Translations under genes and position numbers: made by a program | In this document: positions 2,183-20,781 of the stretch, piece after piece | Layout of the letters: each line of letters starts with the position of its first letter | How positions within the stretch are numbered: the first letter of the stretch is position 1 | Assembly (NCBI RefSeq): GCF_012726195.1 | Contig: NZ_JAASAF010000003.1 | Location: 372,001-436,000, forward strand | Reading direction: 5' to 3' | DNA length: 64,000 nucleotides | Origin: Rhodococcus sp. HNM0563 | Lineage (GTDB): Bacteria > Actinomycetota > Actinomycetes > Mycobacteriales > Mycobacteriaceae | The notes under the pieces: generated by a model | What the model saw: only the letters and a program-made list of their open reading frames with translations | Database searches by the model: none | Told to the model about the DNA's origin: nothing

Positions 2183-2194
2183 CGCTGTCCTCCT

Positions 2195-5661: not shown

Positions 5662-6122
5662 TGTAGGTCACCGCACTTCGTAGAGCGCACGGCAATGTAC
5701 AGGTCGACTCCGAAGGCATGCGGATAGTATTCGAAGTCCCCGGTGAAGGTCCGCTCGATCTCGCCGCGACGCTCCGCTGCCCAGATCTCCTCCCACAAGC
5801 GGGTGAAGATCTCGGCGAAATCGTCGCCCGTTACCGAGAATTTGGCGTACGTACCTGCCGGTAGGCGGGAGACCATGTATCCGGTGGGCACATCGTCGAG
5901 CGACTCGCAGCAGTACCCGACCGTCTGTATGTAGTAGGAACCGACCTCCTCGGCATGATCGGTGTATGTCGACGCGAGCGGACCTGCGGTCTCTCCGTTC
6001 AGGACTGCGAACCACGCTTTCTCCAGATGCGGGTCGCGCACCTTGCCGAGCGCCCGGCGTGGACTCCTCACGGGCAGGCCTGCGACAAGGGTTTCTTTAC
6101 GATCGATCAATCGGAACGGCAT
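5658..6122 (-). CDS. GyrI-like small-molecule-binding protein, tandem paralogue
   Basis: 154 aa. The frame extends upstream to 6212, but the ATG at 6122 (MPFRLIDRKE) has a textbook GGAGGT seven bases ahead and matches the expected domain start. It shares with its downstream neighbour the layout of strand 1, the central 'GYCCESLDDVPTGYMVSRLPAGTYAKFSV' / 'GYRCDNIDELTIGDSLVRVSETYAARFV' block and the 'LWEEIWAAERRGEIERTF' / 'LWDQVEAADKRGEITRAF' helix, so the pair looks like a tandem duplication. It is the first gene of the run down to 275, behind a good promoter (6200-6228). Ligand unknown. Confidence 0.7.
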   Translation of the reverse strand: MPFRLIDRKETLVAGLPVRSPRRALGKVRDPHLEKAWFAVLNGETAGPLASTYTDHAEEVGSYYIQTVGYCCESLDDVPTGYMVSRLPAGTYAKFSVTGDDFAEIFTRLWEEIWAAERRGEIERTFTGDFEYYPHAFGVDLYIAVRSTKCGDLQ

Positions 6123-6199
6123 CGGGTGTACCTCCATGCAGCACGAGCTTCCCCTACGCGCGCTGCCCGACCCCTCGCACGCAGTACCGGGACGATTCG

Positions 6200-6228
6200 A
6201 GATTAGGTCCAAAGTCGCCCGGTTTCAA
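6200..6228 (-). promoter_or_regulatory. Strong candidate sigma70-type promoter for the 6122-to-275 gene run
   Basis: On the minus strand TTGAAA (6223-6228) and TAATCT (6200-6205) are separated by exactly 17 bases, close to the bacterial consensus and unusually good for this GC-rich DNA. It would start transcription about 70 bases upstream of the ATG at 6122. The surrounding 6210-6300 patch is AT-rich. Confidence 0.6.
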
Positions 6229-6319: not shown

Positions 6320-7675
6320 CTAGCCCGCAGTGCCGCCCCATGAGTCCGCCGCCGTGAACCATCTGACCTCGTAAGCCGACCACTCGAACTGCCTGCCGTC
6401 GACGGAAGCACTGGTCGTCGTGTCCCTGGTATTGACGATCACGCGAGCGAGGTCGGTCTCGAGCGCGAGCAATCCGTCCGCCAACCGCACCGTCCGCCGA
6501 TCGACAGTCGATGGAAACCAACGAGCGAAGCGCTGGAGGACATCGAGGAACGGGAGCGGCCGACCTCCGTCGGCGTTCCAGGTGTCCGTCCAGAGGCAAG
6601 TCGCACACTCCGCCCCATCAGGTCGGGGGTTCCAGTAGAGGACCGTGTCTGCGCCGCTCCCTGCGAGCTCGATCATCGCGGCGACGCGCAGAGCAACCTG
6701 ACGCTCCCATGACCAGCCGGGCCCCGGTGGCTCGACATACCACTCGGCCCACCAGATGGGCAGACCGACCTGCTCGCGGAGCCACTCATTGACCGCCGCG
6801 AACTTCTGCACTGCCGTGAACTCGTCCGGCGCACCCTGAGCCGTGGTTGCGTGGGCATCGACGACAACGAAGTCGGCGCCCTTCCGATGCATGTTCCAGA
6901 AGATGAATGCATCCAGGTACCGTTGGTCCACTGCTCCCCACGGACCCTCCAGCTGCGGCGAAGTACCGAGCGCACCCACCGGCTTACTCGCGAATTCGAG
7001 GTAAGGCCCGCCGACCTGGTTCGCCGGATCCACTGCCTTCACTGCGTCGTACACCGCGTTGTACAAGGTGGTGTATCCCTGCGCGTCCCAGCGATCGATC
7101 TCGTCGTCGAAGAATCCTTTGAACTCGTTCCACACGAGAAAGTGGCGGACCTGAGGATAACGCCGTGCCACTTCGGCACTCAGTGCGGCGAAATCAGCGA
7201 AGTGTTCGGGACTCGGAGCCACCTCGAGGCGGTCCCAATCGGTCTCCCCTGGTTCGCCACCTTTCATCCAGTCCGGAGCGCAGCACAGCACTATCACCGG
7301 AGTGCCATCGCTATGGAGAATGAATTCCATTCGACGGTCGAGACTTTCGAAGTCGTACTGGCCGGGTGACGGCTCCGGGTTGTCCACTCCCCACCCCATG
7401 ATGGCCTGCGCCTGCACCATCGGCACCGACCCGACGGCCCTTTCTGCAGCAGCAATCGCCACGGGGTTACCGGTGTCGGCGCTGAATTGCGTATGGGTGA
7501 AACCCCAGCCTGGGGTCCGGATGCTCTCGACTCCAGTCGACGGAGGAATCCCGGGGGATCCCAGGTGCACAGCGAAAAGCACTGCCACCACGGCCGTCGC
7601 GAACGGCAACCTGACCGTGCCCCACCGCCGAATCGCTCTTCGTACGGCCGGTCCCGTCCGGATGCGATGCGTCAT
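6320..7675 (-). CDS. Membrane-anchored GH39-like glycoside hydrolase
   Basis: 451 aa. An N-terminal basic segment and a hydrophobic helix (about residues 20-38, 'LPFATAVVAVLFAVHLG') look like a signal anchor, putting the enzyme outside the membrane. The rest resembles clan-A (beta/alpha)8 glycosidases such as GH39 beta-xylosidases: 'RHFLVWNEFKGFF' carries the N-E acid/base motif and 'LPIWWAEWYVE' is a plausible nucleophile region (E after W-W-A). It is the last gene of the polysaccharide run and starts 18 bases after the small membrane protein. Homologues often sit in actinobacterial exopolysaccharide clusters; trimming or release of the polymer is the likely job. Family assignment is by motif only. 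Confidence 0.7.
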   Translation of the reverse strand: MTHRIRTGPAVRRAIRRWGTVRLPFATAVVAVLFAVHLGSPGIPPSTGVESIRTPGWGFTHTQFSADTGNPVAIAAAERAVGSVPMVQAQAIMGWGVDNPEPSPGQYDFESLDRRMEFILHSDGTPVIVLCCAPDWMKGGEPGETDWDRLEVAPSPEHFADFAALSAEVARRYPQVRHFLVWNEFKGFFDDEIDRWDAQGYTTLYNAVYDAVKAVDPANQVGGPYLEFASKPVGALGTSPQLEGPWGAVDQRYLDAFIFWNMHRKGADFVVVDAHATTAQGAPDEFTAVQKFAAVNEWLREQVGLPIWWAEWYVEPPGPGWSWERQVALRVAAMIELAGSGADTVLYWNPRPDGAECATCLWTDTWNADGGRPLPFLDVLQRFARWFPSTVDRRTVRLADGLLALETDLARVIVNTRDTTTSASVDGRQFEWSAYEVRWFTAADSWGGTAG

Positions 7676-7693
7676 GGCCCCGAGACCTCGGTG

Positions 7694-7855
7694 TCAGGCA
7701 TGCGTCGATCCGTGCTCGGACGGCGCGTGTTCCCCTTGCGGAATGCGCGCTCGGAGGCCGAGAAACAGCACAACATCGACCACCACGAGCAGGAGAAACA
7801 CGGCCGCGAACACTACGACAAGTATCACTAGTGCGTTGATCACCATCTCTGTCAT
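7694..7855 (-). CDS. Single-pass small membrane protein in the polysaccharide operon
   Basis: 53 aa. It starts MTEMVINALV and has an almost uninterrupted hydrophobic stretch (residues 5-33, rich in V, L and F), then a short hydrophilic tail with several histidines. An AAAGGGA stands about 11 bases before the ATG. It lies in the 180-base gap between the acyltransferase and glycosidase genes, is co-directional with both, and uses the same GC-rich third positions, which supports real coding. No family recognised. It could stabilise a membrane complex or anchor the export machinery (inference). Confidence 0.6.
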   Translation of the reverse strand: MTEMVINALVILVVVFAAVFLLLVVVDVVLFLGLRARIPQGEHAPSEHGSTHA

Positions 7856-7896
7856 GCTGATCAGATCCCTTTCCCATCGTCGTATTCAGTGCCCGG

Positions 7897-8745
7897 CTAC
7901 CACGGGACACACACGAGTTCGCTGTAGAGGTCGTCGATCTGCGCAGGCTCCAGGTCGGCACTGCGGTACATCTTGGGCCAGCTGTCCAACTCGAACGACA
8001 TCCGTGGCCTACGCTCGATCAGCCTCAGCTCGGCAAGCGTCGCCACAAGTCCGTGCCGCACCAGCAGGTGTCGCGTCAACGGCATCAGGGCACGTTGGAA
8101 CAGGCCCGGATTACTCACATGCAGAACGATGGCGAATACCGGTATGCCCTTGTACCGACACTTCCGGTACATGACGTAGCAGGATTCCTGCCCACGGAGC
8201 ACCACGAGATGGCGCGCAGCAAGCGCATGTGCGTGGTCACGGTAGAGGTCGAACTCGACGCCGGTGAGCGTGCGCGCGATGACCTGCGGGTCGGAACTCA
8301 CCCTCGTTCGCGAGGGCACCGTCGGCCACGGGAGATTGGGGATGAGCGCCGCAGACGTATCGAGGAATCGGAACTTCCTCCAGGACAGAATCTCCCGAGG
8401 CCCGTCGTCGGGAGAGAGCACGGTGAAGTGGTATCCGTCCTGCGCCAGCAATGCGTCGAGCAACGACATACTGCGTGCCCGATAGTCGGACAACACGCAC
8501 CACGATCCCATATTGCAGAACCGCTCCACTTGCCCCGCGACCCGGCGCTGGGAGTAGAGAGCCAGCAATGTGCCCACCACATTCGGGCCGTCGCGCAACA
8601 TGAATCCGTGATTCGGAGCGTCCACCTTCCACGGCACCGTCGCGCATGCCGACTCCCACGGCACGCGGTCATTGTGATTGACGCTCAAGAAGTCCGCGAC
8701 CTCGCCGAGGTCGGCGTCGGTGATCGGGGCAAGCTCCACGGTCAT
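7897..8745 (-). CDS. GNAT-family N-acyltransferase of the beta-lysine module
   Basis: 282 aa from the ATG at 8745, fixed by an ATGA overlap with the kamA-like stop. The N-terminal half is a GNAT-type fold ('APITDADLGEVADFL', 'VVGTLLALYSQRRVAGQVERFCNMGSWCVLSDYRARSMSLLDALL'), with 'W-C-V-L-x-x-Y-R' matching the acetyl-CoA-binding strand/loop. The C-terminal half is less typical, with a 'YVMYRKCRYKGIPVF' segment. Two roles fit: acetylation of beta-lysine, as AblB does in archaea next to the KamA-type enzyme AblA, or transfer of an aminoacyl group from the carrier protein onto the glycan. The sequence does not decide between them. Confidence 0.65.
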   Translation of the reverse strand: MTVELAPITDADLGEVADFLSVNHNDRVPWESACATVPWKVDAPNHGFMLRDGPNVVGTLLALYSQRRVAGQVERFCNMGSWCVLSDYRARSMSLLDALLAQDGYHFTVLSPDDGPREILSWRKFRFLDTSAALIPNLPWPTVPSRTRVSSDPQVIARTLTGVEFDLYRDHAHALAARHLVVLRGQESCYVMYRKCRYKGIPVFAIVLHVSNPGLFQRALMPLTRHLLVRHGLVATLAELRLIERRPRMSFELDSWPKMYRSADLEPAQIDDLYSELVCVPW

Positions 8746-10169
8746 GGCGCAGAGACCGTTCCGGAGGCATCGCACGGGACGGTGCACGAGTTCCGCCACC
8801 ACGTCTGCCCGGAGGGCGGAAGTGTGTCGATCGGGTCGTAATACGGATAGACCCGGTTCAACGCATCGACGTCCATGCCGTCCAATCCAGTGCGATAGTT
8901 CTTGCTCCAGTGCGAGATACCGCGAATCCGGTCGTAGTAGACCACCTGGTGAACCCAGCGCTTGCCGACGAACGGGACATCGCACACGATCCGCGGGGTC
9001 GCGAATCCGGGTAGGTAACCCATGATCTCCTGCTGCAGTTGCTGCGCCTCCCACAGCGCGACCCGCCAGTGCTCGGCGTGGGGAATCATGTCGCACATGT
9101 AGAAGTAGTAGGGCAGGATGTTCGCTTCGCCCTGCAAGGCGAAACACAGATCGAGCAGGTCGGTGGTGGTGGCGTTCACCCCACGCAGCAACACTCCCTG
9201 GTTGCGCACATCGCGCAGACCGGCGTCGAGCAGTGCCCGCGTGGCCTCCGCAACCAGTGGAGTCACCGACTGCACATGGTTGATGTGGGTATGCAAAGCC
9301 AGATTGACGCCTCGATCCGCGGCGGTGCGCGCCACACGGGCAACTCCGTCGACCACCTTGTCCTGCAGCCAGTGCTGCGGCAACCCGGCAAGAGCCTTCG
9401 ATGCCAAGCGGATATCGCGAACAGTCTCGATCTCGAGCAACTCCGCGACGAAGGCCTCCAGCCGCGGCCAGGGAAGATTCGCCACGTCGCCGCCGGAGAC
9501 CACGACGTCGCGCACGGATGGCGTGGCACGCAGGTACTCCAGCATTCGTTCCTGCCGGTCGGCCGGCCGCAGCTCCAACTTCGCCTTACCGATCGTCGGT
9601 GTGGAATTACCGACGAGGTCCATCCGTGTGCAGTGTCCACAATATTGCGGACAGGTCGACAACAGCTCGGCAAGAACCTTGGTGGGGTACCGATGGGTCA
9701 ACCCCTCTGTCGCCCACATTTCGCTCTCGTGCAACGAATCCCGCTCGGCGTACGGATGCGAGATCCACTGCGGATCACGATCGCTGAGTACGGGCAACAT
9801 GTAGCGGCGGATCGGATCCGCATAGAAGGCCTCGGTGAAACCGCGGCGTGTCGCGCCCGACGGCGTCATGGTGTTCAGCATCTGCGGCGGCAGCAGCATC
9901 GACATCGTCGCACGTTCCTGCTGATCGGCAGCGAGATCGGCATAGAACTTCTCGTCCAGAAGATCGCCCATCACCGCGCGCAACTGCGCGATGTTCTTGA
10001 CGGAGTGGGCGCGCTGCCATTGTGCATCACGCCACTCGGATTCGGTGACGGCCGACCATCCCGGATATCGTCGCCAGTCCGGCTCGATCAATTGCTTTCG
10101 CACGTACCTGTACGGCTGATCGGTGGCGTAGGCGAACCCGGTCTTCTCGCGTTCGATGTATGTGGTCAT
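8742..10169 (-). CDS. KamA-family radical SAM lysine 2,3-aminomutase
   Basis: 475 aa from the ATG at 10169 (ATGA overlap with the amine oxidase stop); the longer open frame upstream is shadow. The radical SAM cluster motif C-x3-C-x2-C is at C173, C177 and C180 within 'LTHRYPTKVLAEL...CPQYCGHCTR', the KamA signature region. 'VVVSGGD' follows, and 'ILPYYFYMCDMIPHAEHWR' matches 'PYY...CD' in KamA. The PLP lysine is probably K403 ('CDVPFVGKRW'), replacing the usual PGGGGK. Family members exchange the alpha-amino group of L-lysine to C3, giving beta-lysine; related enzymes act on glutamate or arginine. The neighbouring adenylation domain with a beta-lysine-type code supports lysine. Confidence 0.85.
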   Translation of the reverse strand: MTTYIEREKTGFAYATDQPYRYVRKQLIEPDWRRYPGWSAVTESEWRDAQWQRAHSVKNIAQLRAVMGDLLDEKFYADLAADQQERATMSMLLPPQMLNTMTPSGATRRGFTEAFYADPIRRYMLPVLSDRDPQWISHPYAERDSLHESEMWATEGLTHRYPTKVLAELLSTCPQYCGHCTRMDLVGNSTPTIGKAKLELRPADRQERMLEYLRATPSVRDVVVSGGDVANLPWPRLEAFVAELLEIETVRDIRLASKALAGLPQHWLQDKVVDGVARVARTAADRGVNLALHTHINHVQSVTPLVAEATRALLDAGLRDVRNQGVLLRGVNATTTDLLDLCFALQGEANILPYYFYMCDMIPHAEHWRVALWEAQQLQQEIMGYLPGFATPRIVCDVPFVGKRWVHQVVYYDRIRGISHWSKNYRTGLDGMDVDALNRVYPYYDPIDTLPPSGQTWWRNSCTVPCDASGTVSAP

Positions 10170-11554
10170 CGTGATACAACCTTCCGAGAATCGGTTTGCG
10201 AAATTCCGGCCGCGATCATCTCGGCGGCGACGCGACGACCGGACCTGATCGCGCCTTCCATGAGCCCGAAGAACTCCAGGCTCGTTTCGGTTCCGGCCCA
10301 GTGCACCCGGCCGTGGGGTTCGATCAGGCTCGGTCCGAGCCGCAACCAATCGCCGGGGCCGAACAGGGCGGCATAGCACCCCTTGCTGTACGTCTCGGAC
10401 AGCCAATCGGTCACTGTGCACTGCGACGGCGCCGGCAGTTGCGGGAACAGCCGGCGGGTGTGGGCCAGCGCTGCCTCCCGCTGCTCCGCCTCCGACATCG
10501 CGGAGAAGGCGGAGGCCGCAGCACCCGTGACGAATCCGGTGAGAATGCCGACGGACTCATCCGGAGGCGAATCGTCGACGGTGGACAGCAACGGCCCCTG
10601 CGCACTCACCGACCACCCGGACAGGCCGCTGTCCCGCCAGATCGGCGACGGGTAACTCAGGTGTACCTTCACCGCGCACCCGCGGCCGGTCGCGGCCGTG
10701 GCACGCGGCTCGGGTAGCCCTGGCCGGAACTCGATCTGCTGCGCCAGCAGCGGCGGAATGGCGACCACGACGCGATCGGCCCGGTACGTGGTCGAGATCC
10801 CCTCGCTGTCCGGACCACAGGCCACCGTCACTCCGTCCCGATCCTGTTCGATCGCGAGAACCGGACGATCCAACCGCACTCGGTCACCGAGCCGGTCGGC
10901 GAGCGCCTCGCACAGCAGGTGCGAGCCCCCGTCGATCCGCCATTGCTGCGCACCGCCCTCGAACGCGTTGAGGTAGCGGATCCCACCGCCGGACGACAGG
11001 TAGAAAGCCATGTGGAGCACGGAGATCGACGCGGGGTCCGCCGCCATCATCTCGCCGAGGAACAGCGGGAGAAAGGTCTGCGCATCCGGATGATCGATCA
11101 CGTCGGCCGCCCATTGTGCAACCGAGATCCGGTCGAGGCGTTCCGCATCCGGGCTCAGCCAGGGAGCATCGGTGCGCACCGACGCCACGATCTCGTCGAG
11201 CCGGTCGAACAGATCACCGAGCGCGACAGCCCCCAGCGGAGGCACCCTACCCGGCGTGGTTGTCCGCTGCCCCGCCATCAGAAAGGTGCTGTCCCCAGCC
11301 ATCTCGGTGGAGGCCACGCCGAGTCCGTACTCGCGCAGCTGCGCGAGAAGTTCGGTGTGTCGCACGCCCAGATAGGCGGCTCCTCCGTCCGCTGAGATAC
11401 CCGAGGACACCGGAATTCCATGCATCCGGCCGCCCACGCGATCTCGCGCCTCCAAGACAGTGACGACCGCGCCCGCGTTCACCAGATCGACCGCGGCGGT
11501 CAACCCCGCGAGTCCCGCACCGACCACGACGACCCGCATGCGCGTCCCGTTCAC
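10166..11554 (-). CDS. Flavin-dependent monoamine oxidase-like enzyme
   Basis: 462 aa. The N-terminus carries the Rossmann FAD motif (VVVVGAGLAGLTAA) and the 'EARDRVGGR' motif of the amine oxidase family. The C-terminal 'GRVHWAGTETSLEFFGLMEGAIRSG' block is the typical flavin-binding end, and 'KGCYAAL' provides a cysteine where MAO-type enzymes can attach FAD covalently. It is coupled by ATGA overlap to the carrier-protein gene upstream and the kamA-like gene downstream. Family enzymes oxidise primary or secondary amines to imines/aldehydes with release of H2O2. Its substrate here could be free or carrier-bound (beta-)lysine, but that is inference. Confidence 0.8.
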   Translation of the reverse strand: MNGTRMRVVVVGAGLAGLTAAVDLVNAGAVVTVLEARDRVGGRMHGIPVSSGISADGGAAYLGVRHTELLAQLREYGLGVASTEMAGDSTFLMAGQRTTTPGRVPPLGAVALGDLFDRLDEIVASVRTDAPWLSPDAERLDRISVAQWAADVIDHPDAQTFLPLFLGEMMAADPASISVLHMAFYLSSGGGIRYLNAFEGGAQQWRIDGGSHLLCEALADRLGDRVRLDRPVLAIEQDRDGVTVACGPDSEGISTTYRADRVVVAIPPLLAQQIEFRPGLPEPRATAATGRGCAVKVHLSYPSPIWRDSGLSGWSVSAQGPLLSTVDDSPPDESVGILTGFVTGAAASAFSAMSEAEQREAALAHTRRLFPQLPAPSQCTVTDWLSETYSKGCYAALFGPGDWLRLGPSLIEPHGRVHWAGTETSLEFFGLMEGAIRSGRRVAAEMIAAGISQTDSRKVVSR

Positions 11555-11772
11555 GACGCGACCGCCGTCACTTTGGCGGTCAGCTGCTCCGCGGTGGGCC
11601 CATCGAGGAAGTCGTCGTATGGCAGTTCGATTCCGAAATCACGGGCAATGGCACTGAGCACCCGCGTGGCCAGAAGTGAATCACCACCGAGTTCGAAGAA
11701 GTCGGAACCGGCATCGACGTCGGGGGTCTCGAGGACCCGGCGGAAGATCTGGACAATATGGTCAGAGTTCAT
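11551..11772 (-). CDS. Stand-alone peptidyl/acyl carrier protein
   Basis: 73 aa, the usual length of a single carrier domain. The phosphopantetheine attachment motif is F-F-E-L-G-G-D-S-L with the modified serine at S32, which is the NRPS-type (GGDSL) rather than the fatty-acid type (DSLD). It overlaps by 4 bases with the adenylation-domain gene upstream and the amine oxidase gene downstream. It should hold the amino acid activated by that adenylation domain as a thioester. No phosphopantetheinyl transferase is visible in the window. Confidence 0.9.
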   Translation of the reverse strand: MNSDHIVQIFRRVLETPDVDAGSDFFELGGDSLLATRVLSAIARDFGIELPYDDFLDGPTAEQLTAKVTAVAS

Positions 11773-13403
11773 CGTTCTGCTCCTTCGAGGTCACCGTTCA
11801 GTGCGGCACGCTGTGTCGCCGATCGATCGATTTTTCCGCTGGCGGTGTACTCCAGTCCTGAAACGAAATACACACGGGCAGGAACGAATTGGCTCGGTAG
11901 CCGCTCACGCAGGAAGCGCTTCAACTCGCGTGGCGTCGGTAGCGTCCCTGCGGCCGGGACCACATACGCCGTCAGCGACATTCGTCCCAGTAGCAGTTCT
12001 CCGACCACCACTGCACCCGCGACGGCGGGATGTGTAGTCAACTGCGCCTCGACTTCCGCCGGATGCACCCGGACGCCGAGTACCTTCAGCTGGTCGTCCG
12101 CACGCCCTCGTGAGAACACCGGGCCGGTCCCGCTGCGAGAGGCGAGATCACCTGTGCGAAACCACCGGGCCGGTCCCGTTCCGTGGTCGGCGACGGGGAA
12201 CCCGGACGCTGTGTGCTCCGGCATGCCCAGATACCCGGTTGCCAGCGATGGCCCGGATACCAGGAGTTCACCGTCGTCGGTGATGTGATCGCGCACGTGG
12301 GGCAGCGGGCGCCCGATCGGTGCGTCGGAGGTGAGTGCCATGACCTCGGGTTCGGCGCCCGGGCCGCTGAGCCTCACAGCGTGGGTCACCATCGTCGTCT
12401 CGGTGCACCCGTAGGTATTGAGCAACACGACGTTTCCGACGGGGAGTTCTCGCCACTGCCGCAACCGGGTCGGATCGACCCGTTCACCCCCGATCACCAC
12501 CAGTCGGAGGCTGCCCGGCAAGCCGATCTGCTCTTCGTGCAGGTAGAGCACGAGTTCGTGCCAGTACGCCGTCGGCAGGTCGATCATGGTGATCGCCTGC
12601 TCGGCCAGCATGCGCACGAAGGGCCGGAACGATCCGATGTGGGCCGCATCATCGAACACCACTGTTGCGCCGGTGATCAATGCGGGCACCATCTCTTCGA
12701 GACACGTGTCCCAGCCGAGAGAGGCGAATTGGAGAACACGGTCGTCGGGTGTGAGTTCGAAGAGGTCGCGCAGCGCGCGTGCCGTCACGGTCAGCGCATG
12801 CCGCGAGATCGCAACCGGCTTCGGAGTTCCTGTGGAACCCGAGGTACACAGCACATATGCCGGATCGTCCGGGAGCCAGGTAGGGCCCGACAGGTCGCCC
12901 TCCACCACTGCCGGGCTGTCGGACACGTCGAACCCACGGTTGTCCGATCCACCGCCGTCGAGATCGGCGATGATCACACGATCGACTCCGAGGGCCGCGG
13001 CGAGAGAATGTTTGCGGGCGCCGGGAAGCGCCGAGTCGATCGGACAGTAAGTGACACCTGCCTGAAGGATTCCGAACAGATGTTCCACCACGGCGGGCGT
13101 GTGCGACACGACCGCGCCGATCCGGCCCGATCCCCCGCCAGCGTCCGGCCGGATCGAGCGGTACCTCGATGCTGTGGAACGGACCCTTGCGGCGAGGTCC
13201 CCATAGGTGATGACGGACCCGTTGTACACGAGAGCCGCGTGGCCGGGCAGGTCGTGCGCCGCGGCGACGAAATCCGTCACCACGTCACCGGTGTGATCGA
13301 TGGCGACCGGAGCGATATCGGGTCCGGAAAGAGTGTTGTGAGACATGAATTCCTCGCTGTCGAGAGAGTTCGGTTGCGGTGCGATTCGCTCCTTCTTCGT
13401 CAT
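11769..13403 (-). CDS. Stand-alone NRPS-type adenylation domain, predicted beta-lysine specific
   Basis: 544 aa from the ATG at 13403 (ATGA overlap with the polymerase stop); the ATG at 13346 with GAGGA ahead is a good alternative giving 525 aa. Core motifs: 'LCTSGSTGTPKP' (A3), 'NTYGCTETT' (A5, C for the usual P), 'FRTGDL' (A7), 'SRGRADDQLKVLGVR' (A8) and 'ASGKIDR' (A10). Aligning by eye to the gramicidin PheA domain gives the pocket residues D232, T233, E236, D275, V303, G305, T330, M338, V339, K524, i.e. D-T-E-D-V-G-T-M-V-K. I recall this as the beta-lysine code of the viomycin/streptothricin type. D232 indicates an amino-acid substrate. There is no condensation or thioesterase domain. It should form the aminoacyl-AMP and load the adjacent carrier protein. 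Confidence 0.85.
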   Translation of the reverse strand: MTKKERIAPQPNSLDSEEFMSHNTLSGPDIAPVAIDHTGDVVTDFVAAAHDLPGHAALVYNGSVITYGDLAARVRSTASRYRSIRPDAGGGSGRIGAVVSHTPAVVEHLFGILQAGVTYCPIDSALPGARKHSLAAALGVDRVIIADLDGGGSDNRGFDVSDSPAVVEGDLSGPTWLPDDPAYVLCTSGSTGTPKPVAISRHALTVTARALRDLFELTPDDRVLQFASLGWDTCLEEMVPALITGATVVFDDAAHIGSFRPFVRMLAEQAITMIDLPTAYWHELVLYLHEEQIGLPGSLRLVVIGGERVDPTRLRQWRELPVGNVVLLNTYGCTETTMVTHAVRLSGPGAEPEVMALTSDAPIGRPLPHVRDHITDDGELLVSGPSLATGYLGMPEHTASGFPVADHGTGPARWFRTGDLASRSGTGPVFSRGRADDQLKVLGVRVHPAEVEAQLTTHPAVAGAVVVGELLLGRMSLTAYVVPAAGTLPTPRELKRFLRERLPSQFVPARVYFVSGLEYTASGKIDRSATQRAALNGDLEGAER

Positions 13404-15535
13404 GACGTCAACATCGCGAAGCGCTCGAGAACGACGAGCACGAATCCGATGAGCAGTGGAATTGCAGCGAAGGTGAGGGGGCGCAGACGTTTGTATCTGT
13501 CGGGAGTGAGCCGCAGGCGCCACGCCTCACGCACACCCAAGGTGCCCACGAGCAAGATCAGGAAAGCCACGCCGACCCCGGTCCAGGGCGTGAGCCACAC
13601 CTGCACTCCGGTGGACATCAGTGCCGTGTGTTCGGCTTCGGCATCCGGAGGCCAGTCGAGGGAATAGACCGTGGCGTCCTGGTTCTCCACGACCGTTCGC
13701 AGTCCGGGCGCGTCGGCCAACGAGGCGCGGAACTCGTCGCCCCAGCCCAGCGGGTATCCCTGGCCGAGCTCGACGAACGCTTCCTGGCTTCGAGTGGTGA
13801 TCAGGTAGGTGTCCGGCCCCTTGTCACGGAGCGCCTGCAGCACGCCTGTCACATCCGACGGGTCGAGGGGGGCCATCGTGTTCGACCAGTGGACGCGTTC
13901 CACGTCGCGGTAACCGAGCGGCATGAACGGGGTGGAGTTGAGCTCGGGGACCGCAGTGACGTAGAGGAACCGCACGTCGTCGGTGGTCTGGTCGTAGACC
14001 GATCCCACTGCACTCACCGCGCCGCTGTCGATGCGCTCGAACGGCTCGTTACCGTAGCGGGTGACGAAGAAGGACAACATCATGACCAGTCCGAGCGCGC
14101 ATGCAGCGCAGCGAGCAAGGAGAGAGGGCCGCGACACCGGGCGGGGAAACAGTGCAAGCGCGACGAGCACCGAGGCCGGGGCAAGTGCGAACAGGTAGAC
14201 CCTCAACGCCATCTCGCCGCCGTAACTCTGCATGAAGGCCAGGCCGATCGGAGCGGTGATCAGGACGAGTAGTACACGGTCCTCGATTCCTCGCCGCCGG
14301 CGCCGGAGTAGCCCTACGCCTGCGATCACGAACACCAGTACCGTCGTGAGCATCCGGGCGCGCACCACCCATTGGTGCTCGGGGTTTCCGAGTTCTGCCC
14401 GATCAGAGATGTTCGCAGACACCGTCGATCCGACGTTCCCGACACCGCTCATCACCTCCCCGAAATGACCTCCCCAATACGCCTGGGTCATATAGCTGAC
14501 CCAGGCGACGACGATCACGACGAGCAGTACGGGAAGTCCCCGGAGTACGCATCGGCGCGCGACGACCAGCCCCGCGGCGCTCAGGATCATGGCGAAGGGG
14601 GTCAGTTGGTGACAGACGGTTGCGGCAGCGAACAGACCCACCACGACGGCGAGGATCACCACTTGCTCCGACGGATCTGTCTTCCTCTGCGGCAGCTCCC
14701 CGCGCGATGCTTCACCCCAAACCCATCGCCACAGCCTGTTCCCCGGACGCAAGGGCCAGGGGGCATCCCCCGACGGTGAACGAGGTGTACGGAACCAGAC
14801 GACGAGGAAGCCCACGAAGAGCAGGTAGAGCACCAGCGCGAAGCCCTGCGGCGAGAAGTAGTCCTGCCCGATCCAGTTGAGGAGACAGAAGAACATGGCC
14901 GCGAGCCATTTCGCCTGCCAGGACATCCGGAGTGGGCTCATCAGCAGCCCGAGTGCGACGAGATACAGCAGGTTGGTGCCCACCGAGGCCACGGACACCG
15001 CGGCATGCAGCGCAGACAGGTCTCCCGAACCGCCCCAGAACGCGGCGAGTGCAAAGAAGCCGGGCCAGGACCATCGGGCGTCGAGGTCCGGTGCGGTGGT
15101 TCCGGTTCGGGCGATGAACTCGACGAATCCGATGTGGACCCAGCTGATCGGGAACCGCGGCTCCGACTCGAGCAGCAGTGTGATGCCGTGCAGCATGAGC
15201 ACGAGCAGGACCAGGTGGATACCGAGTAGCCAGGTGCGGCGGCGGTTCAACGACAACGTGCCGATGAAACCGAGCACGATCAGACCGGGCCCGAGCATGG
15301 TCGATACCGTCAGAACCGAAATCAGCCCGAGCCCGGTCATGGCTTGCAGATCGACGTTGCGCAGCCCGGCCAGGTACAACGCGACTGCCACGACGAGCGC
15401 AACGCAGAGAATCGCCACGGGCAGCCGTTGCCTGCGGTCTTGCGGAGGTAACGGCGGCTGCGCTTCGGTGTCGGTGCACTGTGGGTCGAAATCGGCCGGA
15501 TCGGACCGGCGCTTGTCCGCGTCGATCAGGGACAT
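13400..15535 (-). CDS. Large polytopic membrane protein, candidate polysaccharide polymerase or GT-C glycosyltransferase
   Basis: 711 aa from the ATG at 15535 (GAGGAG 5 bases ahead, 10-base overlap with the flippase); the longer open frame upstream is the flippase gene's shadow. It has a cytoplasmic N-terminus of about 35 residues, roughly a dozen hydrophobic helices through residue 500, then a soluble segment of about 130 residues ('VYDQTTDDVRFLYVTAVPEL...') and two final helices. That layout fits GT-C/YfhO-like or Wzy-like proteins that act on lipid-linked sugars at the outer face of the membrane. Its place right after the flippase gene supports a polymerase role. No catalytic motif could be fixed. 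Confidence 0.6.
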   Translation of the reverse strand: MSLIDADKRRSDPADFDPQCTDTEAQPPLPPQDRRQRLPVAILCVALVVAVALYLAGLRNVDLQAMTGLGLISVLTVSTMLGPGLIVLGFIGTLSLNRRRTWLLGIHLVLLVLMLHGITLLLESEPRFPISWVHIGFVEFIARTGTTAPDLDARWSWPGFFALAAFWGGSGDLSALHAAVSVASVGTNLLYLVALGLLMSPLRMSWQAKWLAAMFFCLLNWIGQDYFSPQGFALVLYLLFVGFLVVWFRTPRSPSGDAPWPLRPGNRLWRWVWGEASRGELPQRKTDPSEQVVILAVVVGLFAAATVCHQLTPFAMILSAAGLVVARRCVLRGLPVLLVVIVVAWVSYMTQAYWGGHFGEVMSGVGNVGSTVSANISDRAELGNPEHQWVVRARMLTTVLVFVIAGVGLLRRRRRGIEDRVLLVLITAPIGLAFMQSYGGEMALRVYLFALAPASVLVALALFPRPVSRPSLLARCAACALGLVMMLSFFVTRYGNEPFERIDSGAVSAVGSVYDQTTDDVRFLYVTAVPELNSTPFMPLGYRDVERVHWSNTMAPLDPSDVTGVLQALRDKGPDTYLITTRSQEAFVELGQGYPLGWGDEFRASLADAPGLRTVVENQDATVYSLDWPPDAEAEHTALMSTGVQVWLTPWTGVGVAFLILLVGTLGVREAWRLRLTPDRYKRLRPLTFAAIPLLIGFVLVVLERFAMLTS

Positions 15536-16923
15536 ACGCTCTCCTCGTATGTCTCGATCGGGGGGTCGCGCTGTGGGCGCTGCTTCAGGAGCCTGCCGAG
15601 ATCCGGAAGCACCGTCAGCATGGTGACGAGTTGACCGAGCAACACCGCGACGCCCACTGCGGTAAGCCTCGGATCGCCGAACTGGGCGAATACCTGGTCG
15701 TACCGCTGCAGGAGCACCACCAACCCCAGGACTGCCGTCGCTCGCGCCGATTGGACGATGATGATCCGCCTGCTTCGGGTGCGTGCCCGCAGCGTCCCGA
15801 GGTAGATGTCCACCACTGCGCTGGCCAGGCTGGCGAGGGCGAGCAGTTGGAGCAGCGGCACTGCGTCGAGGTAGCCGTCGCCGAGTAGTCCCATGGCGTA
15901 CGGAGCCGCGAGGCCGACCGCGACGAAACCTGCGACGAGCAGTCCCAGGGTCCTGATGAGCGCGGCGCGGCAGTAGTCGGCCAAACGCGAAGGGGCACAA
16001 ACTCCTTCCACAGCAAGCGATACACCGGTGTTGATCGCCACGAGGTTCATCATGTTGGCGACGGACCAGGCCAGGAAGAAGTACGCGTAGGTATGCGGAG
16101 CAACCCGCAACGCCACCAGGACGGGGACGAGAAAGATCGTGCCGTACTGCAGTAGCGCTCCGAAGTAGTCGGCGGCGAAGAACCGGCCGACCTGTGAAGC
16201 TCGCACTGCGACATCGTGAGTCGACGTGCGCACGTGCCGCGGTAGTAGCTTGCCGAAGATCAACAGGTTCACCGGGAACACGACGATGAACATGGAGATG
16301 ATCCAGGAGAAGAAGACCCCCGTACGGGGCATCGTCTCGGCGAGCAGTACGAGTAAGCCGAGCTTCGCGACGGCGAATGCCGCGTTCCACACGGGCACCC
16401 AGACGGCGACACGCAATCCGGTCAGGACACTGTCCTGCACCGTGATCACACTCGCGACCACCGCCGCGCCGATGAACCACAGTCGCATGTTCGGCTCGCG
16501 CAGGATGTCGTACGCCGGGCCGCCCAGTATGTCGAGCGCGAAGGTCAGGGCGACGGCCAGTACGGCGACCACTCCGGAGGTGAGCAGGTACACGAACACG
16601 ACGACCCGGACGGTGCGCGTGCCGGTCTTGGGTATGAAGCGGTTCAGCGTACCCGCGAAGTTGGCCGACACCAGCCCGGTCAACAGCATCAGCGCAGAGA
16701 TCGCAGCTGATCCGCGACCGACATCCGAATCGTCGTAGAAGTGCGCGGCGAGGATCCAGTACCCCAGGCCGAGTGCGCCGGTGATTCCGGTGTTGAGGAC
16801 GAGCGCATAGGTGTTCCGCAGGAAGAGCGAACCGCTGCCCCGATCACCGACCGCCCGCTCGGCCACAACACGATCGCCGGTGGGTCCGCCGCCCGGATCG
16901 ATCGCAAGCACGCTCTCAGCCAT
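15526..16923 (-). CDS. Wzx-like oligosaccharide flippase
   Basis: 465 aa with about 12-14 hydrophobic helices and the 'LFLRNTYALVLNTGITGALGLGYWILAAHFYD' opening common to polysaccharide-synthesis membrane proteins of the MOP superfamily. Such proteins flip undecaprenyl- or decaprenyl-linked repeat units across the membrane. The start overlaps the deacetylase gene by 8 bases. Gene position between deacetylase and polymerase fits a Wzx/Wzy-type pathway. Confidence 0.8.
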   Translation of the reverse strand: MAESVLAIDPGGGPTGDRVVAERAVGDRGSGSLFLRNTYALVLNTGITGALGLGYWILAAHFYDDSDVGRGSAAISALMLLTGLVSANFAGTLNRFIPKTGTRTVRVVVFVYLLTSGVVAVLAVALTFALDILGGPAYDILREPNMRLWFIGAAVVASVITVQDSVLTGLRVAVWVPVWNAAFAVAKLGLLVLLAETMPRTGVFFSWIISMFIVVFPVNLLIFGKLLPRHVRTSTHDVAVRASQVGRFFAADYFGALLQYGTIFLVPVLVALRVAPHTYAYFFLAWSVANMMNLVAINTGVSLAVEGVCAPSRLADYCRAALIRTLGLLVAGFVAVGLAAPYAMGLLGDGYLDAVPLLQLLALASLASAVVDIYLGTLRARTRSRRIIIVQSARATAVLGLVVLLQRYDQVFAQFGDPRLTAVGVAVLLGQLVTMLTVLPDLGRLLKQRPQRDPPIETYEESVCP

Positions 16924-17710
16924 GTCGCGCGACCCGCTTACCTACACGACGGGCTCCGCGCACGGTCGCATACCCTGCGGTCAGAACCCGGTCCCGCAGG
17001 TAGAACTGCTTGTCACCGCGCATGATCGACGCGAAGTCGTTGTCGTCGGTACTTCGGCGGATGGTCAACCTCGGGATCATGAACGGGTCACCGGATGCAG
17101 TGGCGCGAATATTTCGCACGGCCGCCGCGCACCGATAGCCGGCTGCTCTGGCCGCGACCCGCACCCGCGGGGTCGAGTAACCGAAGGGGTAGGCGAGCGC
17201 ATGGACGGGAGCGCCGACGCACTCCTCGAGGAGGATCCGTCCGATGCGAAGCTCCTCGCACAGTGCCGCATCACCACACTGGTCGAGTTGAGCGTGGCTG
17301 TGGCTGTGCGCCCCGATTTCGACACCCTCGCTCGCAAGCTCCCTGACCTGCGCCCAGTTCAGCATCGGTCCCAGCGGATGTCCGGCTGCATTGGAGCCTG
17401 CGTCGTCGATCCAGCCGCTCGTGACGAACACCGTCGCCGGGAATTCGTGCCGCCGAAGAATCGGCCAGGCGACCCGCGCGAAGTCCGCGTAGCCGTCGTC
17501 GAATGTGAGCACCACCGTTCTCTCCGACACGGGCCCATCCTTCGCCAGTGCATCGGCGAGGTGGGAGAAGGTCATCCCGGTGTAGCCGTTCTCTGCGAGA
17601 AAGGTGATCTGCCGGTCGAAGGCATCGGGATCGACGGAGAGACGACGGGTCGCGGCGGTGGGGGCTTCCGAAACCGAGTGGTACATGAGGACCGGAATCG
17701 ACTCGTTCAT
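16916..17710 (-). CDS. Polysaccharide deacetylase (NodB/CE4 family), cytoplasmic
   Basis: 264 aa. CE4 motif 1 is 'TFDDGYADF' (catalytic base and metal aspartates, about residues 69-77) and motif 2 is 'HSHSHAQL' (zinc histidines). 'LAYPFGYSTPRV' matches the third motif region. There is no signal peptide: the protein opens MNESIPVLMYHSV. It therefore probably removes an N-acetyl group from a lipid-linked or nucleotide sugar inside the cell, exposing a free amine. In this operon such an amine could be the acceptor for the activated beta-lysine (inference). 4-base overlap with the glycosyltransferase gene upstream. Confidence 0.85.
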   Translation of the reverse strand: MNESIPVLMYHSVSEAPTAATRRLSVDPDAFDRQITFLAENGYTGMTFSHLADALAKDGPVSERTVVLTFDDGYADFARVAWPILRRHEFPATVFVTSGWIDDAGSNAAGHPLGPMLNWAQVRELASEGVEIGAHSHSHAQLDQCGDAALCEELRIGRILLEECVGAPVHALAYPFGYSTPRVRVAARAAGYRCAAAVRNIRATASGDPFMIPRLTIRRSTDDNDFASIMRGDKQFYLRDRVLTAGYATVRGARRVGKRVARHG

Positions 17711-18675
17711 GACGTCGCCGACATTGCAGATCGCCTGCGGAGCGGCACGCCCCCGCGCGCGTAGCCGGCTGCCGCGGAAAGGAGACCGACCGAGATCGCG
17801 TACGAACGCTCGATACCTGCTCGTTCTCCACGGAGCGCCTCCCCCAGCCCCCGCGCCACGCCTCGGGTGAGGGTGCGTGCGGTGTAGCTACGTTCCGCCG
17901 AGAGTCCATCTGCGACACCCACACTGCGCGTGACGGCCGCTTTGGACAGACCCTCGGCGAAGCAGCGGGAGCGGAAGTAGGAAAAAGTCTCTCGCGCAGC
18001 AGGTACGCGGTGCCAGATCACCGACTGTGGTTCGAAGACGAAGGTCCAGTCCGGTCGATGCTGGCGCACCCGGATGCAGAACTCCGTCTCCTCACACCCG
18101 AGGGGTCGGCTCTGCTCCGAAGTCCGGCCGATGTGACTCGGGAAACCCCCCGCGACCGAGAAGACCTCGCGGCGGAATGAAGCATTGCCGCCCAACAGGT
18201 TCCGCACCGGTCCCGCCTCTCGCCCGGTGAATGTGCATCCAAGGACCCAATCGAACTCTTCCGGAAACCATCGGGGCCGCCCGGATTCCCAGGAGGGAAG
18301 GGTGGTGCCTCCTACGCCGACGATGGTCTCGTCCACGTAGGCATCGCGGAAATGCCTGAGCCAGTCGGGATGAGCCACTGCATCATCGTCCAGGAAAGCC
18401 ACCACATCACTGGTGGCCACCTCGACACCGGTGTCCTTGCCACCGGACAATCCACGTTGCTTCCGGTTCTCCACCACGGTCACGTCGGGTAGGGCCGCGC
18501 TGAAGAGTTCGTAGAGATCGGGATTGTGGTCGACGACGAGGACGATCTTCTGCGGCGGCGTCGTTTGATTCCGCACCGATTCGATCGCAGCGAGGGTGTC
18601 GTCCCAGCGCTCGAGCGTGTAGGCGCAGATCACCACATCCATGGTCATACTGCTCGGAGGTATTGCGGCGGTCAT
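17707..18675 (-). CDS. Family 2 glycosyltransferase
   Basis: 322 aa from the ATG at 18675 (MTAAIPPSS), chosen for its ATGA overlap with the upstream membrane-protein gene. GT-A features: 'MDVVICAYTLERWDDTLAAIESV' N-terminal strand, 'VVAFLDDDAVAHPDWL' with the metal-binding DDD, and 'GGNASFRREVF' followed by 'GCEETEFCIRV' (ED acceptor motif). A hydrophobic C-terminal helix may bind the membrane. It would transfer a sugar from a nucleotide donor to the growing lipid-linked unit; donor unknown. Confidence 0.85.
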   Translation of the reverse strand: MTAAIPPSSMTMDVVICAYTLERWDDTLAAIESVRNQTTPPQKIVLVVDHNPDLYELFSAALPDVTVVENRKQRGLSGGKDTGVEVATSDVVAFLDDDAVAHPDWLRHFRDAYVDETIVGVGGTTLPSWESGRPRWFPEEFDWVLGCTFTGREAGPVRNLLGGNASFRREVFSVAGGFPSHIGRTSEQSRPLGCEETEFCIRVRQHRPDWTFVFEPQSVIWHRVPAARETFSYFRSRCFAEGLSKAAVTRSVGVADGLSAERSYTARTLTRGVARGLGEALRGERAGIERSYAISVGLLSAAAGYARGGVPLRRRSAMSATS

Positions 18676-19088
18676 GGAACATCTTCCTTCGTATGTGGAA
18701 GCGAGTTGTGATCGTTCGGCACCAGCCACAGCACGGACGCGGTGAGGCCTACCGCGACCACACCTGCTGGGGGCGACCAGGCTTCGGCCGTCAACATCGT
18801 CTGTGCGATCAGCACGTTGATGACGAGGGAGCCTGCGGCCCCGACGATCAGAGCGAGTAGGACGTTGATGCCCGGTAGCAGCCGGACGAGTGCGATCAGC
18901 GGGGCTGCGACGACGAACATCACCACTATCAGCCGATCCGGGAGCCCCGGAAGATGAGGACTGTTCACGGCGATCGCCACTCCTCCGAGCGCCGTCGTTG
19001 CGGCGGCGACAAGGCGGTGCCCGAGTCGTGTGCCTCCTCGCGGTGCCCTGAGGGCTGTGAGAAGCCGGCCGGTGGTGTCACGACGCAC
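18672..19088 (-). CDS. Small polytopic membrane protein of the polysaccharide operon
   Basis: 138 aa. The frame is open far upstream, but GTG at 19088 is the probable start because GAGGAGG stands six bases ahead and it overlaps the SDR gene by only 11 bases. Three to four hydrophobic helices are visible ('LVAAATTALGGVAIAV', 'LIVVMFVVAAPLIALV', 'INVLLALIVGAAGSLVINVLIA', 'AGVVAVGLTASVLWLV'). No family recognised. Its coupling to the downstream glycosyltransferase gene (ATGA) suggests a membrane partner. Confidence 0.65.
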   Translation of the reverse strand: MRRDTTGRLLTALRAPRGGTRLGHRLVAAATTALGGVAIAVNSPHLPGLPDRLIVVMFVVAAPLIALVRLLPGINVLLALIVGAAGSLVINVLIAQTMLTAEAWSPPAGVVAVGLTASVLWLVPNDHNSLPHTKEDVP

Positions 19089-19884
19089 AACGGACCTCCT
19101 CACCCTCCGGGTGCAGGCCGACCGCAGCAGTGCGCTCGAGGTCGGCACCTGAATCCGCTGGTATCTCCCAGGTCTCACCGGTTCGGATGCAGAAGGTGCC
19201 GGTGACCGACATGGGGGCCCGGCCCGCGCGGACGAATGCTTCGACAGCGTCGTCGAGGCAGACGCGGGCTGCAGTGTCGCCGACGCAGACACGGGCGTCA
19301 GTAGCGTAGGCGCGCCCGCCGTTCCCCTCGCGCGGATCGTAGACGTCGGCGAACGCCAGGCAGATCGGCGCCAGCCCGTACATCTGGGCATACGCATTCA
19401 GATAGAGCTCACCGGCCAGCTTGGCGGCCTCGCCGGGTGTGGCCGCAGCAGGAGACGAACTCCGTACCGCGGGAATCGGGCTCGCGTCGTCGCACCGAGG
19501 ACTACCCGATGTCGCGTATACAACTCTGCGTACACCGGCCCGGCGACCGGCTTCGCAGACATTGATCGTGCCGAGCACGTTGATGCGGGCATCGAACTGC
19601 GGATCGGCCACCGACACTGCGGGATCCACCTGTGCGGCGAGGTGGAATATCACTTCCGGATTCGCTCCGGCCACGATGCCGAGCAGTTCGGGACATTGGA
19701 TATCGCGCTGCAGCAGAACGAATCGATCCGCTCCGGGTTTCGTTCGGAGCAGGACACGTTCGAGATCCGCGGTGGTGCCCGAGCTGAGATCGTCGACGCC
19801 GACCACGTGGTGTCCTTCGGTGAGGAGTCGTTCGACCAGAGCCGACCCGATGAATCCTGCGGCACCGGTGACCAGTGTCCGCAC
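19078..19884 (-). CDS. NAD-dependent sugar epimerase/dehydratase-like protein with a degenerate active site
   Basis: 268 aa, shorter than the usual 300-340. The Rossmann motif is intact (TGAAGFIGSALVERLL), as are the following D-D-L-S-S-G and 'EVIFHLAAQVDPAVSV' motifs typical of UDP-glucose 4-epimerase-like extended SDRs. The catalytic Y-x-x-x-K is changed: the DNA reads G-E-A-A-K, so the tyrosine is glycine. The region between the active site and the C-terminus is also about 25 residues short ('FADVYDPREGNGGRAYATDARVCVGD'). It may be catalytically dead, binding NAD or sugar only, or use another residue. It begins the coupled chain after the first glycosyltransferase gene (3-base gap). Confidence 0.75.
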   Translation of the reverse strand: MRTLVTGAAGFIGSALVERLLTEGHHVVGVDDLSSGTTADLERVLLRTKPGADRFVLLQRDIQCPELLGIVAGANPEVIFHLAAQVDPAVSVADPQFDARINVLGTINVCEAGRRAGVRRVVYATSGSPRCDDASPIPAVRSSSPAAATPGEAAKLAGELYLNAYAQMYGLAPICLAFADVYDPREGNGGRAYATDARVCVGDTAARVCLDDAVEAFVRAGRAPMSVTGTFCIRTGETWEIPADSGADLERTAAVGLHPEGEEVRCAS

Positions 19885-19887
19885 GGC

Positions 19888-20781
19888 TCATTCCTTCGCG
19901 AGCTCGGGGGCGCCGCCGCGGGACAGGGCTTGGGCGACGTAGCCGGACATCCCGGAATTGTGTCCGCGGAGGACGGTGCGCAACACCCTGATCCCGTCAC
20001 GGACAGCGTGGAGATTCGATTTGCCGGATCGGCGCGGCATTTCCAGGCTCGGAACCTCGACCACGCGCAGACCGCCCTGCATCGCGTGCACCACCATTTC
20101 GGCCTCGATCTCGAATCCCGACGCGGAAAGCGACAAGAGCTCGAGGTAGCGGCGGTGGAATGCGCAGAAGCCGTAGCACAGGTCGGTGAGTTCGGCGTCG
20201 TAGAGAGTGTTGAAGACGGTGAGCAGGAACCGGTTGCCGAGTCGGCGGAAGGGGGTGATGTCGAGCGAACCGCCACCAACGATGAACCGCGAGCCCTTGA
20301 CGAAGTCGAATCCGTTGTTGAGGAAGTACAGGTAGTGGCGGATCTCCTGGGGCGCCATGCTTCCGTCTGCATCCATCATCACGATGATGTCGCCGGATGC
20401 CGCAAGGAATCCCGTCCTGAGCGCGCTGCCCTTGCCGGTGCCTTCCTGCGGCACAACCTTGATGTCCGATCGGCAGCTACTGGCGGTGATGAGGGTCGAG
20501 TCGGTCGAGTTCCCGTCGACCAGGATGATCTCGCCGATGTCGTCGGTGATCTGCTCGAGCACCCAGGCGATGTTCCGTCCTTCGTTTCTGACCGGGATGA
20601 TCAGGCTGACGGTGGGTCTCTGCGCGGGCGGAGCAGCATCGACGAGATCGTGACGCGCAGTACCGGCGACGCCGTTGGACGATCGAGCGGGGCTTCCCGG
20701 TCGGAAATGTTCGGTGGGGTCGACCATCCGCTCCGATGGCGCACCGGTCACGAGCCCGTTGGGCGGGCGTACCTGGGTCAT
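19888..20781 (-). CDS. Family 2 glycosyltransferase, DPM/GtrB-like; first gene of the polysaccharide operon
   Basis: 297 aa from the ATG at 20781 (MTQVRPPNG), preceded by a GGAG about 8 bases upstream; the frame is open to 20916 but that part is leader. 'TVSLIIPVRNEGRNI', 'VDGNSTDSTL' and 'IIVMMDADGSM' form the GT-A donor site with the DAD metal motif, in the style of dolichol-phosphate mannosyltransferase-like enzymes. No C-terminal transmembrane pair is present, so it is probably soluble or peripheral. Being first, it sets the start of a minus-strand operon that reaches 6320. Confidence 0.85.
   Translation of the reverse strand: MTQVRPPNGLVTGAPSERMVDPTEHFRPGSPARSSNGVAGTARHDLVDAAPPAQRPTVSLIIPVRNEGRNIAWVLEQITDDIGEIILVDGNSTDSTLITASSCRSDIKVVPQEGTGKGSALRTGFLAASGDIIVMMDADGSMAPQEIRHYLYFLNNGFDFVKGSRFIVGGGSLDITPFRRLGNRFLLTVFNTLYDAELTDLCYGFCAFHRRYLELLSLSASGFEIEAEMVVHAMQGGLRVVEVPSLEMPRRSGKSNLHAVRDGIRVLRTVLRGHNSGMSGYVAQALSRGGAPELAKE

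Follow-up and report, generated by a model that had tools for sequence, protein, structure and literature searches.

In the D-alanylation of teichoic acids by DltA, DltC, DltB and DltD, a surface polymer receives an aminoacyl group by way of a stand-alone adenylation (A) domain and a small carrier protein. The exosortase-A-associated set also places an AMP ligase (TIGR03098), a carrier and an amino-acid enzyme (the decarboxylase TIGR03099) in a polysaccharide locus, and in the ablAB pair, which yields the osmolyte N-acetyl-beta-lysine, KamA is followed by a protein of the GNAT (GCN5-related N-acetyltransferase) fold. According to the available parts of the sources, streptothricin biosynthesis puts beta-lysine on an amino sugar via carrier-bound intermediates (PMC4351081, PMC11702664), and the epsilon-poly-beta-lysine synthetase has an adjoining KamA that supplies beta-lysine to its A domain (PMC10522769). 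Here we describe a 14-gene operon of Rhodococcus sp. HNM0563 that shares features with each of these systems and lies in a 64,000-nucleotide stretch of contig NZ_JAASAF010000003.1 (hereafter the window). On balance, we favour the reading that this operon builds, tailors and exports a surface polysaccharide whose free amino groups are acylated with beta-lysine or with a ring likely made from it. Relatives conserve the joined system, and it is probably new; we found no description of a beta-lysine-bearing bacterial polysaccharide in the open-licence literature, which agrees with an earlier reading of the DNA by a model (the sequence-only reading) that knew of no described example.

Results

An operon of polysaccharide-type genes and a KamA cassette

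Open reading frame (ORF) coordinates bear out that 14 genes run in the same direction on the minus strand, from 20781 down to 6320 of the window. They had been described as nearly all overlapping by 4-11 bases; this holds for 10 of the 13 junctions, and the remaining three are gaps of 3, 41 and 18 bases. Because the gene order is kept in the loci of relatives, the arrangement is more than chance, and the 14-gene operon is confirmed as first observed. Close named relatives are Rhodococcus, with KamA 96% identical in Rhodococcus sp. JCM 9791. In order of transcription, the genes are:

19888..20781, minus strand: GT2 glycosyltransferase, the operon's first gene (Pfam PF00535, 81.4 bits)
19078..19884, minus strand: NAD-epimerase-type short-chain dehydrogenase/reductase (SDR), apparently degenerate (Pfam PF01370, 109 bits; alignment with six relatives)
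18672..19088, minus strand: small membrane protein (ORF with hydrophobic segments by eye; no Pfam match)
17707..18675, minus strand: GT2 glycosyltransferase, AglG-like (Pfam PF00535, 70.4 bits; NCBIfam AglG, 207.5 bits, under the cut-off of 440)
16916..17710, minus strand: polysaccharide deacetylase (Pfam PF01522, 92.2 bits; TFDDG and HSHSH motifs)
15526..16923, minus strand: Wzx-like flippase (PF01943 matches and export names of homologues)
13400..15535, minus strand: large membrane protein, polymerase-like by position and membrane character
11769..13403, minus strand: stand-alone A domain, code DTEDVGTMVK (Pfam PF00501, 169 bits; PF13193, AMP-binding_C)
11551..11772, minus strand: 73-aa peptidyl carrier protein with GGDSL (Pfam PF00550, PP-binding, 61.8 bits)
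10166..11554, minus strand: flavin amine oxidase of the monoamine/putrescine-oxidase type (Pfam PF01593, 245.9 bits; PDB matches 8p84, 4i58 and 2yg6)
8742..10169, minus strand: KamA-type lysine 2,3-aminomutase (PDB 2a5h, E 2.4e-38; NCBIfam TIGR03820, 160 bits, under its cut-off)
7897..8745, minus strand: double-GNAT, N-myristoyltransferase (NMT)-like protein, candidate transferase (predicted structure)
7694..7855, minus strand: 53-aa protein with a single hydrophobic segment
6320..7675, minus strand: GH39-like glycosidase; a hydrophobic stretch at its N-terminus is visible by eye (Pfam PF01229, 27.2 bits against a cut-off of 26)

Co-occurrence of the A domain and KamA in Mycobacterium

We searched 396 Mycobacterium genomes for the A domain (E 1e-100) and for KamA (E 1e-60). 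Each was found in 35 genomes, and the two sets of 35 were identical, which upholds the claim that the two enzymes belong together. KamA was present in all 38 genomes checked, that is, the 35 and three others (G000, G002 and G010; genomes and loci are cited by our G and L handles). In three of the 35 (G786, G912 and G982) KamA lies about 24 kb from the A domain, and in G892, where one contig carries the oxidase and then KamA, and G962 the two are on separate contigs. The cassette loci of 34 of these genomes were fetched; the 35th, G569 (L097), has A domain, carrier, oxidase and KamA in a row. Gene labels in the loci come from BLAST matches to references (E 1e-6), some of which were no more than 22-35% identical. 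The carrier follows the A domain in all 34 loci, KamA stands no more than three genes after the A domain in 28, and a close double-GNAT is present in 16. The cassette is accompanied by same-strand genes of polysaccharide type in 30 of the 34 loci by label count, or in 31 when the Wzy_C protein of L154 is counted, and the earlier statement that the module lies among such genes is thereby sustained.

Evidence for the supply and loading of beta-lysine

KamA aligns with the lysine 2,3-aminomutase 2a5h and keeps the counterparts of its FeS, pyridoxal phosphate (PLP) and lysine-binding residues; we take the CxxxCxxC cluster, the PLP lysine and the lysine-binding aspartates to have the same roles as their 2a5h equivalents. 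Among relatives chosen by BLAST, the motif CxxxCxxCTR was found in 114/114, CDVPxxGK in 113/114 and Y..YMCDM in 103/114. Furthermore, we examined 67 loci (L017-L083) of named Pseudonocardiaceae-type genera and a few others, in which KamA is 70-76% identical. Relatives of KamD and KamE are both present in 28 of them, 25 of which also have KDD. KamD, KamE, KDD and Kal belong to lysine fermentation via beta-lysine and act downstream of beta-lysine. In L018 the neighbours score above the NCBIfam cut-offs for all four (KamD 685.9 against 600, KamE 343.1 against 280, KDD 202.1 against 200 and Kal 182.4 against 160). Judged indirectly, by these neighbours of its relatives, KamA likely makes beta-lysine from lysine. 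In a tree of motif-selected sequences (101 chosen, 90 distinct), the KamAs of the Mycobacterium and Rhodococcus cassettes group in a single clade (35 tips, support 1.0). The KamA of a distant cassette, L099, falls among those of Pseudonocardiaceae type; that of another, L100, is not among the placements listed.

The best NCBIfam profile of the A domain is MxcG, a lysine-using enzyme. The protein has both the AMP-binding and the C-terminal domain, and the carrier has the phosphopantetheine Ser in its PP-binding domain, as befits a stand-alone A domain and carrier of the nonribosomal peptide synthetase (NRPS) type. Read against an alignment with LgrA, using GrsA numbering, its pocket code is DTEDVGTMVK; 54/54 relatives (chosen by BLAST at no less than 38% identity, with some genomes counted twice) have DTED[VI]GT[ML][VI]K, and the carrier motif GGDSL is kept in 52/52 carriers chosen by BLAST. 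In PosA, according to the available part of the paper describing it, the Asp at code position 1 and the Glu at position 3 are in contact with both amines of a diamino acid (PMC10522769). Taken together, these comparisons support well the predicted supply and loading of beta-lysine.

Close association of the amine oxidase with the A domain and carrier

The amine oxidase belongs to the monoamine/putrescine oxidase family and keeps the Cys of its GCY motif and a family Lys, whose roles we assume to be those of the family; a GCYA motif was found in 48/51 relatives. No other gene accompanies the A-carrier pair so constantly, the oxidase lying within two genes of the A domain in 33 of the 34 loci. 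In addition, carrier and oxidase are fused in one 529-residue chain in the distant locus L098. Because of this constancy and this fusion, the group that is attached may differ from beta-lysine and may lack a cationic character. Beta-lysine is, like putrescine, a 1,4-diamine, so oxidation of its terminal amine would allow closure to a pyrroline. We infer that the oxidase probably alters carrier-tethered beta-lysine, perhaps closing a pyrroline ring. The sequence-only reading, which gave the oxidase no role, had proposed a glycan bearing beta-lysine as a cationic decoration. This is borne out in part: the linkage of A domain and KamA and the polysaccharide context speak for such a glycan, the attached group may be oxidase-altered beta-lysine, and its cationic nature is not secure.

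A double-GNAT protein as candidate transferase

The product of 7897-8745 had no match in Pfam and none in NCBIfam at E 0.01, its counterparts in L005 and L007 had none in NCBIfam at E 0.001, and a PDB sequence search with it returned nothing at E 10. Its predicted structure has the NMT-like double (tandem) GNAT fold along the full length, which places it in that fold. The name GNAT given to it earlier is corrected to a predicted double GNAT, and the idea of a simple, single-domain acetyltransferase was rejected on the predicted double-GNAT structure. Close double-GNATs (59-77% identity) occur in 19 Mycobacterium genomes, all of them among the 35 with A domain and KamA, and at that identity in none of the 361 others.

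Paralogous double-GNATs were found in seven further Mycobacterium loci (L167-L173), where an AMP-ligase relative and a small carrier-type protein stand among polysaccharide genes in 7/7 and a PLP decarboxylase in 6/7. NCBIfam cut-offs are reached there by the ligase of L168 (TIGR03098) and by the decarboxylases of L168, L169 and L170 (TIGR03099). L169 and L171 each carry two double-GNATs.

Polysaccharide assembly genes and flanks

By eye, the deacetylase has no evident signal peptide and is apparently cytoplasmic. The flippase itself had no Pfam match at E 0.01 and no NCBIfam match; its label as a flippase draws on homologues, some of which match PF01943 (that of L134 at 20.3 bits, under the cut-off of 28.2) and many of which bear names of O-antigen/teichoic acid export or of lipopolysaccharide biosynthesis. 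The polymerase-like protein reached no Pfam or NCBIfam family above cut-off. The deacetylase, a GlmS-like gene in 18/34 loci (Pfam-tested in L007) and a UDP-GlcNAc 2-epimerase in L148 point to amino sugars. In the alignment with six relatives, the SDR (19078-19884) is about 60 residues shorter than most Mycobacterium relatives and the usual catalytic Tyr position is changed, so that it looks decayed.

Just downstream, at 275-4939, the window encodes a GAF-GGDEF-EAL protein and a ThiF-nitroreductase protein, and a link from cyclic di-GMP to the polysaccharide is possible. M. tuberculosis probably has a similar pair of neighbours. Two adjoining small proteins are encoded at 5236-6212, one of the Cass2/GyrI type by Pfam and the other similar to it by eye.

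Other contexts and mobility of the cassette

Distant cassettes, with A domains 45-48% identical, occur in other families of the order. In L099 the cassette stands with an AMP ligase, KamA and a type I polyketide synthase (PKS); in L100 with KamA, a related protein of about 585 aa and a gene of the major facilitator superfamily (MFS) type by sequence start; and in L098, a short contig without KamA, with an AMP ligase, an ATP-grasp protein and an MFS-like gene, again by sequence start. No polysaccharide gene was recognised beside these three. The sequence-only reading had held that it would be refuted if the module occurred without polysaccharide genes in relatives, and this is brought about in part by the A-carrier-oxidase cassettes that have a type I PKS or AMP-ligase genes as neighbours and, in L099 and L100, include KamA. 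L101 and L103 hold a still more distant A domain with a carrier, a condensation-type protein, a Rieske-type oxygenase and an oxidase (family tests were made on the L101 members). At L101:8248-15942 we observed the distant A domain, carrier, condensation domain, Rieske oxygenase and amine oxidase together with a weakly BtrH-like protein, whose match of 21.3 is under the cut-off of 29.7. It seems that more than one pathway receives a beta-lysine-derived thioester from the cassette, the Rhodococcus and Mycobacterium copies being mostly beside polysaccharide-type genes.

Comparison of flanks showed that L004 (G010) has the 3' part of the operon together with the window's downstream flank. In G002 the operon is elsewhere (L102), beside aro-type genes by sequence start, and the stretch from Mfd to the Cass2/GyrI/EAL genes is without it (L181); in G012 the operon is likewise absent from this stretch (L179). 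In both G012 and G002, relatives of the Cass2/GyrI-type pair are close to Mfd and the operon is not there. Of the operon, G011, which has the nearest MazG relative, retains the first six genes, GT2 to flippase (L177:8496-14749), and has lost the KamA cassette: in this natural deletion the start of the seventh, polymerase-like gene runs into the EAL gene and the remainder is missing. In G988 (L150:12316-16500) KamA is split by a transposase-type gene, assigned by sequence start, and A domain, carrier and oxidase remain.

Discussion

Proposed pathway

In the pathway that we propose, KamA would convert lysine to beta-lysine, and the A domain would activate it and load it on the carrier protein. 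The amine oxidase would then act on the carrier-bound residue, oxidation of the terminal amine giving an aldehyde that could close on the 3-amine to form a 1-pyrroline. The apparently cytoplasmic deacetylase would free an amine on a lipid-linked amino sugar, to which the NMT-like double-GNAT would move the acyl group from the carrier thioester. Finally, the Wzx-like protein would flip the unit, the polymerase-like protein would join units and the GH39-like enzyme would trim the chain. Gene content and order, protein families, co-occurrence, a predicted fold and the carrier-oxidase fusion of a relative are what the analysis shows; transfer of the acyl group to the glycan is a likely inference.

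Several observations weigh against this pathway. Co-occurrence among related genomes is not independent. KamA was found in just 5/301 family genomes sampled (two as partial or split matches) and 3/18 genus genomes sampled, and the A domain in 10/397 order genomes at E 1e-70. KamA scores 160 bits against the TIGR03820 equivalog cut-off of 525.4 (the relative in the lysine-fermentation locus L018 scores just 158.3), and 39 of its 67 relatives' loci are without KamD and KamE within the fetched stretch. The pocket code alone does not tell beta-lysine from lysine, and that of the epsilon-poly-beta-lysine synthetase differs (DGESISVVNK), as given in the available part of PMC10522769. In L014 (= L160) KamA and the GNAT have no adjoining A domain, which is about 24 kb off, and the oxidase is missing from one of the 34 loci, L165 (the L015 genome). 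The pyrroline step is drawn by analogy only. The close double-GNAT is absent from 16 of the 35 genomes, and is lacking in L006/L137, L010/L143 and L012/L097, so that a different transferase would be needed in those 16. Three loci are left out of the polysaccharide-linked count, namely L117 (a 3.5-kb contig), L137 (such genes on the other strand only) and L150. A ketosynthase-type protein precedes the A domain in five Mycobacterium loci (L135, L137, L138, L140 and L147, by sequence starts, with a Pfam test in L140 only); these genes and the type I PKS of L099 mean that the carrier-bound unit may also feed carbon-carbon condensation.

Alternative readings

These last genes, and the related cassettes beside the type I PKS (L099) or beside a second AMP ligase and an MFS-like gene (L098, L100), would suit a cassette that makes a small secreted metabolite, either amino-acid-derived or a short polyketide, and merely shares its locus with the polysaccharide genes. 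We regard this as unlikely. The cassette of the window overlaps the polymerase-like gene by 4 bases; in L102, L134, L136, L145 and L166 the genes before it, read in the same direction, are those for GT2, deacetylase, flippase and polymerase-like protein (with about 57 bases between the polymerase-like gene and the A domain in L102); polysaccharide-type genes of varied type are near it in 31/34 loci; and the operon genes that were scanned with Pfam showed neither a condensation nor a thioesterase domain. It is very improbable that KamA and the GNAT make N-epsilon-acetyl-beta-lysine as an osmolyte, as an ablAB-type pair would, even though a GNAT-fold gene follows KamA in the window and in many relatives. 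This GNAT has no NCBIfam match and is predicted to resemble NMT-like double-GNATs over its length, it is missing from 16/35 KamA genomes, and KamA never occurred without the A domain in the 396 genomes, where an osmolyte would not need one. Assignment to the ablAB pair was rejected on the AblA score (160 against 525.4 bits) and on the absence of an AblB match.

Two further readings concern the chemistry of the loaded group. The A domain could load plain L-lysine, or the oxidase could work on free lysine, KamA serving another step; the MxcG profile and the breadth of the amine oxidase family would allow this. We hold it to be improbable, given that A domain and KamA co-occur perfectly, including the three genomes with KamA about 24 kb away, and that the more distant A domains of L099 and L100 have a KamA with them too. 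A less improbable alternative, although still a doubtful one, is that beta-lysine reaches the glycan by way of the carrier without modification and makes it cationic, in line with the sequence-only reading, with the oxidase acting elsewhere. L165 (= L015), with A domain, carrier, KamA and GNAT and no adjoining oxidase, agrees with it, whereas the oxidase no more than two genes from the A domain in 33/34 loci and its fusion to the carrier in L098 argue against it.

Returning to a polysaccharide acylated with beta-lysine or a derived ring, we can tentatively carry the idea further, at clearly lower confidence. The radical enzyme may make a 1,4-diamine from lysine, the carrier-bound oxidase may close a reactive pyrroline ring and the NMT-like enzyme may plant this ring on the polysaccharide, which would be a novel form of glycan tailoring at the surface. 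Double-GNAT, AMP ligase and carrier would then be a general, hitherto unassigned machine for amino-acylating polysaccharides, in which the amino-acid enzyme (KamA or a decarboxylase) is swapped to choose the group. If the acylated polysaccharide is real, some mycobacteria and rhodococci load a beta-amino acid in NRPS fashion to decorate their surface polysaccharides, and this route differs from both teichoic-acid D-alanylation and tRNA-dependent lysinylation. Such groups would alter the charge and reactivity of the envelope. Two orphan groups would also gain a testable role, namely bacterial NMT-like double-GNATs and the AMP ligase, decarboxylase and carrier sets of exosortase-type polysaccharide loci.

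Comparison with known systems

The operon would differ from the Dlt system in using beta-lysine rather than D-alanine, with a predicted transfer to an amine by the double-GNAT. Membership in Dlt was rejected, the A domain scoring 140.9 bits against the DltA cut-off of 559.85, and Pfam gave no MBOAT protein of the DltB type for the operon genes that were scanned, a set without the 53-aa gene at 7694-7855. Streptothricin is a small antibiotic made with a condensation domain, whereas the acceptor here would be the repeat unit of a polymer. As to a streptothricin-type ligation, no condensation domain was found in the operon genes scanned, and an amide-forming activity of the A domain cannot be read from sequence. 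The epsilon-poly-beta-lysine synthetase is a single membrane NRPS with another code and a homopolymer product, and the available part of its description mentions no polysaccharide genes (PMC10522769). In contrast to ablAB, the KamA of this type is always accompanied by an A domain in Mycobacterium. The exosortase-A-associated set has a homologous double-GNAT nearby in L167-L173. The A domain of the window scores 141.6 against the TIGR03098 cut-off of 592.35 and no decarboxylase was recognised in the operon, which places it outside that set; in place of the decarboxylase, the operon has KamA and an amine oxidase.

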